64,000 nucleotides of DNA, taken from NCBI RefSeq assembly GCF_009764685.1, contig NZ_VHLM01000047.1:62001-126000 (forward strand), read 5' to 3'. Below are positions 45,992 through 59,376 of the stretch, piece after piece; the stretch's first letter is position 1; every line of letters begins with the position of its first letter. Made by a program: the position numbers and the translations under genes. Under the pieces are notes generated by a model. The model was not told the DNA's origin, searched no databases, and saw only the letters and a program-made list of their open reading frames with translations. This DNA comes from Flavobacterium sp. I-STPP5a (GTDB lineage: Bacteria; Bacteroidota; Bacteroidia; Flavobacteriales; Flavobacteriaceae).

Positions 45992-46172
45992 GATGTAGCA
46001 ACTTAATTAGTAAAGTTTGTCGTTTGAGACTGTTACCAGAATCACCAACTTAAAAACTTTACAAAGGAAACTATTTTTTGGCATTTTGCTATTTTAATGT
46101 CGGATTAAGTTGGCCCGAACTGGAGATTCCTCGTTCATCGAAATAACAAATAGACTTGAAGCACCTACTTCC

Positions 46173-46253
46173 CTAGCCCCAATAGCAGTGAAAATCCTTT
46201 CCATTTTTTCTTTAAAAATGGAAAGATTGCAACGGATAGTGGGAAATAGCTTC
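46173..46253 (+). ncRNA. Structured intergenic element, Flavo-1-like (copy 1)
   Basis: The 5' block CTAGCCCCAATAGCAGTG leads to a perfect 12-base hairpin, CTTTCCATTTTT (46197-46208) with AAAAATGGAAAG (46214-46225). The 3' block is GATTGCAACGGATAGTGGGA and then AATAGCTTC. GAAGC at 46158-46162 could pair with GCTTC at 46249-46253 as an outer helix. Copy 2 at 59164-59278 shares the two blocks but has a different hairpin. It lies ~135 bases upstream of metG. I recall a similar element as the Flavo-1 RNA motif of Bacteroidota; that name is from memory and unchecked. Confidence 0.7.
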
Positions 46254-46271
46254 AAATAAAATTCTATTGCT

Positions 46272-46279
46272 TATTTTTG
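46272..46279 (+). promoter_or_regulatory. Candidate -7 element for metG
   Basis: TATTTTTG matches TAnnTTTG. It would start metG transcription near 46286, just downstream of the Flavo-1-like element, giving a ~100-base leader without it. No TTG at the right distance. Confidence 0.35.
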
Positions 46280-46388: not shown

Positions 46389-48446
46389 ATGATACAGAAT
46401 CCAAAAAGATATACGATTACAGCGGCATTGCCTTATACAAACGGACCCATCCACATAGGCCATTTGGCAGGTGTTTACGTACCGTCAGACATATATTCAA
46501 GATATTTAAGATTGCAAGGAAGAGACGTTTTGTTTGTTTGCGGAAGCGACGAACACGGCGTGGCGATTTCGATGAAAGCCAAAAAAGAAGGTATTACGCC
46601 TCAGCAAGTAATTGATAAATACGATGGTATTATCCGTAAATCGTTTTCGGATTTTGGAATTTCATTTGATAATTATTCAAGAACTTCGGCTAAAATTCAT
46701 CATGATACGGCTTCGGAATTTTTCAAAAAATTGTATGAACAAGGCGATTTTATTGAAGAAGTAACCGAACAATTGTATGATGCTAAAGCAGATCAGTTTT
46801 TAGCAGATCGTTTTGTAATGGGAACTTGCCCAAAATGTGGCAACGAAGAAGCATACGGCGATCAGTGCGAAAAATGTGGTTCTACGCTAAATGCTACCGA
46901 TTTGATTAATCCAAAATCAACCATTACAGGCGAAACTCCTATCATGAAATCAACGAAACACTGGTTTTTGCCTTTGGATCGCTACGAAGATTTCTTGAAA
47001 GAATGGATTCTTGTAGGACATAAAAGCGACTGGAAACCGAATGTGTACGGCCAAGTAAAATCATGGATTGACGGTGGATTAGAACCTCGTGCGGTAACGC
47101 GTGACCTAGACTGGGGAATTGATGTTCCTGTTGAAGGCGCTGAGGGGAAAAAATTATACGTTTGGTTTGATGCACCTATTGGATACATATCGGCTACGAA
47201 AGAATGGGCTTTGCGTGAAGGGAAAGACTGGGAACCGTACTGGAAAGATCAAGACACAAAACTGGTTCACTTTATAGGGAAAGACAATATTGTATTTCAT
47301 TGCGTGATTTTCCCGGCAATGCTAAAAGCTGAAGGTAACTATATTTTACCGGATAATGTTCCTGCTAATGAGTTCTTGAACTTGGAAGGAAACAAATTAT
47401 CGACGTCTAAAAATTGGGCCGTTTGGTTGCACGAATATTTAGAAGAATTCCCAAATCAGCAAGATGTATTGCGTTATGCCTTAACATCAAATGCACCTGA
47501 AACGAAGGATAATGATTTTACTTGGAAAGACTTTCAAGCTAGAAACAACAATGAACTGGTAGCGATTTTTGGAAATTTCATCAATCGTGTGGTGGTTTTA
47601 ACCAATAAATATTACGACGGAATTGTCCCTACTCCTAACAAATTATCTGAGGTAGACGAACAAACTTTGGCTGAATTGAAAGCCTATCCATCAGTAATTT
47701 CAAGTTCTATCGAAAGATACAGATTTAGAGAAGCACTTGGTGAAATGATGAATGTAGCAAGACTCGGAAATAAATATTTGGCCGATGAAGAGCCTTGGAA
47801 GATGATTAAAACTGATGAAGAACGTACAAAAACTCAAATGTATGTTGCTTTGCAAATTGCTGCAGTTTTGAGTTCGCTTTGTGAGCCGTTCTTGCCTTTT
47901 ACTTCTGTAAAATTGTCAAGAATGTTGAATATCAACATCAACAATTGGAATTTGGAATTTGAAGATTGGAATTTATTACCCGCTGGTCACCAAATTGGTC
48001 AAGCCGAATTACTGTTTTCGAAAATTGAAGATGAAGAAATCCAAAAACAAATCGATAAATTAGAAGCAACCAAAACAGCTAACAAAGCCGAGAATAAAGT
48101 GGCTGAACCACAAAAAGAACTTATTCAATTTGAGGATTTTGCCAAAATGGATATCCGCACAGGAACCATTTTAGAGGCAGAAAAAATGCCAAAAGCCAAT
48201 AAACTTTTGATTTTAAAGGTAGATACTGGAATTGATATTCGAACGATAGTTTCGGGAATTGCCGAAAGTTTTAAACCAGAAGATATCATTGGGAAACGCG
48301 TAACTGTTTTAGTGAATTTGGCACCAAGAAACTTACGTGGCGTAGAAAGTCACGGTATGATTTTGATGACTACAAATACCGAAGGAAAACTTGTTTTTGT
48401 AAATCCTGATACGGATGGTGTGGGGAATGGCGAGATGATAAATTAA
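46389..48446 (+). CDS. metG: Methionyl-tRNA synthetase
   Basis: Class I synthetase charging tRNA-Met. At 685 residues it is the long form with a C-terminal dimerisation/tRNA-binding domain. Motifs: HIGH as [14 protein letters not shown], two-knuckle zinc site [18 protein letters not shown] (~residue 145), the KMSKS loop as [13 protein letters not shown] (~residue 335), anticodon-binding helices, then an OB-fold EMAP/Trbp111 domain ([20 protein letters not shown] onward, ~580-685). The KMSKS replacement KLSTS is usual in this subgroup. Confidence 0.97.
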
Positions 48447-59163: not shown

Positions 59164-59278
59164 AGGAGCAGGCGAGCATCTTTTCCAGTCGTTTTGTCCT
59201 GCTGTACGCTACAATCTCCTGTGCCATCCCAATGTTTCCGGTCTGGCACAGGAGGATTTTCGCTGCCATCAGGGCTAG
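59164..59278 (-). ncRNA. Structured intergenic element, Flavo-1-like (copy 2)
   Basis: On the minus strand the 5' block CTAGCCCTGATGGCAGCG leads to a perfect 10-base hairpin, CTCCTGTGCC (59254-59245) with GGCACAGGAG (59225-59216), across a 19-base loop. The 3' block is GATTGTAGCGTACAGCAGGA. Against copy 1 the two blocks match with few changes while the central hairpin sequence is different yet fully paired. A GAGCAGGCGAGC segment at 59166-59177 may form the outer part. Two overlapping open frames here are explained by this element. Confidence 0.7.
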
Positions 59279-59376
59279 AAAGATCGTATCGGTTTTCAGT
59301 AGAAAAGTAATCCCAAGCATCCTGCAAGTACACGATACAAAATCCGATGAAGGCCATCCATAAGCCCAAAAACGAA

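Follow-up and report, generated by a model that had tools for sequence, protein, structure and literature searches.

A Flavo-1 element upstream of metG in Flavobacterium sp. I-STPP5a is one of many structured copies at gene borders

The window analysed here, a stretch of 64,000 nucleotides from Flavobacterium sp. I-STPP5a, carries a hairpin-forming element upstream of metG and a second, similar element elsewhere in the stretch, and it raises the question of what such an element is: an RNA in its own right, a leader of the gene that follows, or something else. An earlier note on this DNA had described a structured element with a second copy in the window, and had named the family Flavo-1 (RF01705), without known function, as its likely identity. 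Both elements are present and both are Flavo-1, each matching the full Rfam model (positions 1-76) in cmscan and scoring above the gathering score of 42 bits. The element upstream of metG is a member of a known family whose function is not known. The features, in window coordinates, are as follows.

46171..46250, plus strand: Flavo-1 copy 1, Rfam match (cmscan, 74.9 bits, E 1.1e-14, model 1-76)
46174..46259, plus strand: copy 1 extended element, TAGCCC ... GCT and A-rich tail (conserved columns in 65 class A copies; closing GCT[CT]C)
46174-46197, plus strand: copy 1, 5′ segment TAGCCCCAATAGCAGTGAAAATCC (from the sequence)
46175..46177, plus strand: copy 1, 5′ strand of P0, AGC, which could pair with GCT at 46249-46251 (GCT[CT]C within 50 nt 3′ of the core in 184/195 copies)
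46178..46196, plus strand: copy 1, 5′ basal arm of P1 with two GNA internal-loop halves (sequence; pair counts in other copies)
46197..46225, plus strand: copy 1, variable apical hairpin CTTTCCATTTTT/AAAAATGGAAAG, 12/12 pairs, tip loop TCTTT (sequence; tip-loop types counted)
46225-46244, plus strand: copy 1, 3′ arm GATTGCAACGGATAGTGGGA (from the sequence)
46225..46243, plus strand: copy 1, 3′ basal arm of P1 with two GNA internal-loop halves (sequence; pair counts in other copies)
46249..46251, plus strand: copy 1, putative 3′ strand of P0, GCT, followed here by TC (GCTTC; GCT[CT]C counts)
46272..46279, plus strand: -7-like promoter box of metG, TATTTTTG, 3′ of copy 1 (sequence; comparison of metG loci)
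46389..48446, plus strand: metG (methionyl-tRNA synthetase), downstream neighbour of copy 1 (Pfam PF09334, E 9.3e-160)
59191..59280 (59280-59191), minus strand: Flavo-1 copy 2, Rfam match (cmscan, 74.2 bits, E 1.8e-14)
59165..59190, minus strand: copy 2 (L020), rest of the ~28-nt linker and closing GCTCC (59169-59165), the GCTCC lying 28 nt past AGCAGG

Pairing is conserved between the two copies in place of sequence, as the earlier note had proposed: the apical stem of copy 2 (CTCCTGTGCC/GGCACAGGAG) is perfect, as is that of copy 1, yet the two are unrelated in sequence, and a G-C pair in copy 2 corresponds to an A-T pair in copy 1 (A46181-T46240). The flanking blocks were said to match nearly base for base; counted by eye, this holds for AAAATCC (7/7) and is overstated for the 5′ block (14/18) and the 3′ block (14/20). 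Copy 2 lies on the minus strand, a point absent from that description, and its start, put there at 59164, is sensible, the closing GCTCC lying outside the Rfam match; the -7-like box just past copy 1, with metG downstream, was also read correctly. Given the Rfam E-values and the covariation across other copies, the element stands far above chance. Its high-copy, dispersed occurrence had been missed because just two copies are visible in the window.

In Weinberg 2010 (PMC2864571) Flavo-1 is listed as a probable RNA and not as cis-regulatory, and another report (PMC9029176) places the family among the most abundant bacterial sRNAs. RNA-seq of F. psychrophilum puts Flavo-1 matches in sense, in antisense and outside transcribed regions, with no real clue to function (PMC9723704). 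A literature search of main texts, mostly of open papers, returned no paper that treats Flavo-1 as a dispersed repeat.

Fold, extension and strand asymmetry

Three sets of elements were compared: 90 copies from the same genome as the window (G000), the best 30 of 59 copies from a complete genome, G010, and 103 copies drawn by pattern. For the pattern set a 5′-arm pattern was followed by a second pattern for the 3′ arm (126 tried, 103 kept, 23 without a 3′ arm); 102 of its copies come from named genomes and one from a viral contig, and it was drawn without the covariance model and with the tested 3′ partners left free. In this set the basal pair after CCC (N-N′) occurs as C-G, T-A, A-T and G-C and is Watson-Crick in 102/103 copies, and the basal pair after GAT (X-X′) likewise takes all four Watson-Crick forms (99/103); the corresponding shuffled means are 38.6 and 34.0, with maxima of 54 and 50, in 2000 shuffles uncorrected for relatedness. 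By this test the consensus pairing with covariation that marks a Flavo-1 member is seen at both basal pairs.

The apical part is freer. Its stems have a T-rich 5′ arm and an A-rich 3′ arm (1019 T-A against 122 A-T pairs) and are near perfect and fast-varying, while the GNA/GNA internal loops of P1 stay uncorrected. Among 145 tip hairpins, 39 of the 53 pentaloops are GN[GT]TT or TCTTT, and none of the 30 tetraloops is GNRA or UNCG, two types often met in structured RNA.

The fold extends past the 76 positions of the Rfam model. Conserved columns in the 65 class A copies of G000 run from TAGCCC to about 10 nt beyond the Rfam end, and include GCTCC and a 3′ tail of CC followed by A-rich sequence. 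The motif GCT[CT]C is present within 50 nt 3′ of the core in 57/62, 30/30 and 97/103 copies of the three sets (184/195 in total), compared to 0, 2 and 8 in a control window at 80-130 nt and 7, 2 and 14 in one at 130-180 nt. The distance of the motif from the core falls into two groups, 4-5 nt (143 copies) and 28-33 nt (37 copies), with other values in four. This motif can close a predicted AGC/GCT outer helix, P0, which in class A is supported by position and not by covariation because AGC and GCT hardly vary. In the second class of G000 (class B), a covarying outer helix of 5 bp is found in 22 of the 26 copies examined, counting L061, for which a wrong occurrence of the partner may have been picked; the matched 5-mers are of six kinds (GCGTG, GCATG, GCGTT, GCATT, GCGTA and GAATG), and a foreign partner fits in 2/134. 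The first class split, 65 and 25, misfiled L053, L060 and L071, which were reassigned by hand in the class B counts and left in place for the class A conserved columns and the class A GCT[CT]C count. The element seen here therefore differs from the Rfam model in having a closing GCUCC, an optional linker of ~30 nt, and a class whose 5-bp outer helix covaries, all beyond the modelled part. The linker is mostly no stable hairpin, with folding energies of 0 to about -3 kcal/mol and a few to -9, and a role as a guide was rejected, as the longest match to its own flank averages 8.0 (without L249) over 38 segments and that to foreign flanks is also 8.0. In L249, a Pedobacter record, a 30-nt self-match of the linker is a second element copy 322 nt away, with the flank duplicated too.

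The mismatches in the stems are strongly asymmetric. Of 223 elements 173 could be parsed, and the pair counts cover the 168 of these that are left once repeats are removed: G-T outnumbers A-C by 60 to 7 (p 1e-11), alongside 2264 Watson-Crick, 22 G-A/A-G, 4 T-C/C-T, 8 G-G and 1 A-A pairs. The excess is also seen at the basal pairs of the pattern set alone (12 against 0) and in antisense tandem settings (17 against 1), where the expected mRNA is the other strand; in sense tandem settings (6 against 1, p 0.13) the numbers are too small for a conclusion. Replication is an unlikely cause, because orientations are mixed along the complete genome G010 (59 matches), and no replication-strand bias was seen there by GC skew in 20 samples of 20 kb, which are too noisy to place the origin. 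The asymmetry suggests that Flavo-1 folds on one strand, with the plus strand seemingly recognised as a folded single strand, be it RNA or DNA.

From comparisons at the level of sequence, we give an even chance to the reading that Flavo-1 is a REP-like, high-copy dispersed intergenic repeat that is recognised in trans as a folded single strand, and that spreads and decays. The plus strand would form a branched hairpin, with the outer helix P0 and a long P1 with its two GNA/GNA loops, completed by the free apical stem and the optional ~30-nt linker; a trans factor would recognise one folded strand, the simplest form being single-stranded or extruded DNA; and recognition would allow Flavo-1 to spread, to replace older copies and to stay on at gene borders, while lineages that lose the driving factor would lose their copies by decay. 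The core structure, the strand asymmetry, the copy number and its patchiness, the lack of promoter enrichment, the partial sharing of sites, the differences between copies at one site and their erosion are all observed. We infer that DNA and not RNA is the acting strand, that the factor is an enzyme, that copying is active, and that the factor has been lost in places. REPs and BIMEs are similarly short imperfect hairpins, intergenic, numerous and patchy, with one structured strand, whereas Flavo-1 is longer and branched with a free apical part. Integron attC sites also have a conserved foot, a free apical stem and a single folded strand that matters, and ERIC and BOX elements are structured, modular and intergenic, with unclear host functions.

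Genomic setting and transcript-level readings

The main rival, a realistic possibility if one that we doubt on balance, is that plus-strand transcripts, whether antisense, read-through or weakly promoted, fold and are bound by protein or processed, so that the copies are scattered sRNA or processing signals. Tolerance of G-T over A-C is also predicted by RNA, which counts against a REP-like repeat, and branched folds with internal G-A loops are common in RNA; the conserved internal and tip loops, with the two prevailing kinds of pentaloop, fit this too, as does the Rfam type of sRNA gene. The lack of GNRA and UNCG tetraloops points the other way. The fabG site has a promoter box immediately 5′ of Flavo-1, and the element there is probably transcribed in sense; this again speaks for RNA and against the REP-like reading. 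Across the 223 elements, however, a promoter of their own is not enriched, with plus-strand TAnnTTTG within 50 nt upstream in 12/223 against a shuffled mean of 9.5 (sd 3.0), the -7 box alone being scored. Boxes of this kind are enriched 3′ of the element (12/223, shuffled mean 4.6), as expected of the promoters of neighbouring genes.

The orientations also speak against an sRNA gene. With gene calls that are open reading frames only, overlap with a called frame is seen in 0/90 copies of G000 and 0/30 of G010, and is flagged for 8/103 of the pattern set. The 215 elements clear of reading frames comprise 77 antisense and 37 sense tandem settings (p 0.0002), 44 divergent and 32 convergent; the 3′ neighbour gene is antisense in 116 and sense in 87, with no gene called there in 12. 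Sense tandem copies are thus the rarer, and the transcriptome matches of PMC9723704, which fall in sense, in antisense and outside transcripts, also argue against an RNA gene. The Rfam label 'Gene; sRNA' for RF01705 is supported neither by promoters nor by orientation here, and where sites are kept across species, the mixed relations to promoters are evidence against a single role at the transcript level. The proposal in the earlier note that copy 1 is an independent RNA and not a leader is accordingly weakened in its first half; its second half stands, a leader being improbable with the metG box 3′ of the element.

A role as an intrinsic terminator or a bidirectional transcription insulator is quite unlikely. 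The element is a hairpin at gene borders, and for 32/120 copies of G000 and G010 the gene on the 3′ side is antisense and has its stop codon 1-31 nt away, but the A-rich 3′ arms leave neither strand closing its stem in a U run, so that the T run of a terminator is lacking; convergent settings are not in excess over divergent ones, and the strand asymmetry is unexpected of a two-way insulator.

That Flavo-1 is a cis-regulatory leader of the downstream gene, e.g. metG, is very improbable. Nine copies of G000 and G010 do end 16-19 nt before a start codon in sense, and the fabG site would also suit a leader, but a constant sense position inside a transcript is not what is seen, since orientations are mixed, the 3′ gene is more often antisense than sense, and the metG box lies 3′ of the element. 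Thirty metG loci were fetched, of which 29 are informative, that of G003 starting within metG. The metG box, CTATT[GC]C[CT]TATTTTTGCA, is present in 12/30, own included, and among these twelve genomes an intact Flavo-1 is there in five and not in seven. The conservation of this box 3′ of the element, with or without an intact copy, indicates that Flavo-1 is probably not the metG leader. Among the 29 loci, own included, five hold intact copies in the same orientation; G014 has a weak second-class match in the opposite orientation (L185 3733-3811, 43.4 bits); G002 (a hybrid), G005, G007 and G019 carry a remnant or hybrid by eye; and nothing clear was recognised in the other 19.

Three further observations concern the metG sites. 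The apical tip of the metG copy (window 46207-46216, TTTCTTTAAA) is the reverse complement of the tip in G017 (TTTAAAGAAA, L177), i.e. an inverted hairpin tip. In L184 and L193 the Flavo-1 site is separated from the metG promoter by a small hairpin of CCCGAAGYGTCGGGA type, of which L179 has a relic. Near metG in G006 (L199 580-657) there is a match to c4-2 RNA (RF02944, 46.7 bits).

Neutral quasi-palindrome correction, which would make perfect stems with no recognition at all, suits the near-perfect, fast-varying apical stems and the metG tip loop inverted between G000 and G017, but we give it next to no credence, as a symmetric process would not yield the G-T excess among mixed orientations, and the GNA/GNA loops are kept uncorrected.

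Copy number, candidate drivers and turnover

The earlier note had called for a genome-wide search for further copies, and there are many. The G000 genome (3.67 Mb, 86 contigs) has at least 90 matches at E up to 1e-3, 84 of them over the cut-off, and this count may be low since scoring was limited to 150 of the 988 first-look candidates. Across the genus, 25 genomes show a patchy distribution, from none (G018 and G020), one (G024) and four (G002) to at least 88, the scoring being capped at 89. With stricter filters and 15 candidates scored per genome, 44/296 Bacteroidota genomes have matches (36 over the cut-off), and a pattern scan of named genomes gave at least 120 stretches. The pattern matches listed are mostly from Flavobacterium, with others from Chryseobacterium, Halpernia, Epilithonimonas, Kaistella, Pedobacter, Polaribacter, Dokdonia and MAGs of other Bacteroidota. 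As for carriage by phages, 2.9 million viral contigs gave three pattern matches, of which one, L326, is a full element (included in the 103-copy pattern set) and the other two are without a 3′ arm. The flanks of L226 (F. tiangeerense) resemble those of L035.

The usual driver of REP-like repeats is a Y1 transposase. Intergenic high-copy hairpins with one-strand asymmetry are found here as in REPs; co-occurrence with RAYT is not, and no RAYT/Y1 association was found, which is a further difference from REP/BIME. Y1/RAYT was rejected as the driver, as it does not track copy number in the own genome and 40 genomes searched. Genomes without Y1_Tnp have Flavo-1 nonetheless, namely G004 (88 matches), G011 (44), G012 (12) and G016 (20), and the case of G004 in particular stands against the REP-like reading. 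No Flavo-1 was found at the 20 Y1 loci scanned with Rfam of 35 fetched, nor by a regex scan of the seven Y1 loci of the own genome. Reverse transcriptase was rejected as well: G000, G001, G003, G008 and G013 are without RVT_1, and G020 has four RVT_1 matches and no Flavo-1. No recurrent mobile neighbour gene was recognised in the top flanking-gene clusters, judged by first residues, which instead are shared core-gene sites. Several of the 11 Y1 loci whose flanks were read by eye carry other palindromes. In L093-L095, L142 and L145, RAYT-like Y1 genes are flanked by a short palindrome of GATAGCGCGGATTTGCAATCCGTGCCCA type whose start resembles the Flavo-1 foot; this palindrome and its RAYT-like Y1 are probably a true REP/RAYT pair distinct from Flavo-1.

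Comparison of sites between genomes shows that some are shared and that the copies at them may differ. Eleven of the 30 G010 copies have both flanking genes in common with a G000 copy, and four more have one of them in common, all with the orientation unchanged. In the 11 of these 15 site pairs that could be parsed, all nine changes at the two basal pairs are Watson-Crick on both sides, which suggests a host function at some sites and counts against a REP-like repeat. Copies at some shared sites stay alike (e.g. L017/L113 and L006/L109), and at others the apical stems are unrelated: at one site with alignable flanks, the tip of L021 (G000) recurs in L255 (another species) and is missing from L117 (G010), and copies at the ancestral site of L076 also have unrelated apical stems. 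The tip loop GNGTT occurs in 13/30 copies of G010 and 3/90 of G000 (p 5e-7); as the closing stems vary, common tip loops are possibly selected in parallel and not copied. Eight G000 copies (L067, L069 and L073-L078) have one common apical insert, ACAAGGC...GCCGTAG, and this form is absent from the G017 regions of the seven copies whose flanking gene was found. Among the near-identical pairs listed in G000, the likeness starts at TAGCCC, ends near the CC tail and hardly continues outside the element.

Erosion of copies is seen by eye at metG and at other sites. G017 is the closest relative by MetG (93% identity), and the 17 of 52 rows read for it amount to 15 distinct regions, L349/L361 and L351/L362 being the same DNA. 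By eye, one region has an intact but different copy, one a degraded copy, one a 3′ end only and one a second-class-like element, and the other 11 are without trace; the Rfam threshold confirms just the intact copy. Absence in G017 is not always a true empty site, because young-looking copies were chosen and some regions are rearranged. In G002 (20 rows, with two weak ones, L347 and L348, left out) there is no Rfam match at 18 sites of G000 copies, and three remnants are seen by eye. Clean filled and empty site pairs with a target duplication were not found in the comparisons with G002 and G017; MITE-type ends were compared, and some copies have weak TTTTAG/CTAAAA ends by eye. Some copies come from ordinary duplication, as L114/L116 (G010) are alike far into their flanks and L249 (Pedobacter) has element and flank twice, 322 nt apart, and such flank-including duplications again weigh against the REP-like reading.

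A bolder form of the REP-like reading is that Flavo-1 is a self-spreading, strand-specific hairpin at Bacteroidota gene borders that swaps its apical module, driven by a trans factor that is neither Y1 nor reverse transcriptase, and is no RNA gene; we consider this rather unlikely. If it were true, what is now tallied as one of the most abundant bacterial sRNA families would turn out to be mobile structured DNA of a new kind. Should Flavo-1 be a dispersing repeat, the numbers of sRNAs given for Bacteroidota are too high, and it is unsafe to read regulation into any single copy. With the asymmetry between strands, the longer fold and the copy-free genomes, the question of the driver can be put to the test.

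Two kinds of insert were also observed. A second hairpin, of ACTTCACT ... AGTGAACTTCGTTTG type, lies within Flavo-1 or replaces part of it in L083, L090 and the metG sites of G002 and G019 (L181 and L182); it sits at the GATT before GNA-ACG and looks like a separate invading module. A related apical insert of GAGCGACCAA.GGAAGCTCC type is present in L213, L223 and L241, which are from different genomes, with L241 having a diverged form.
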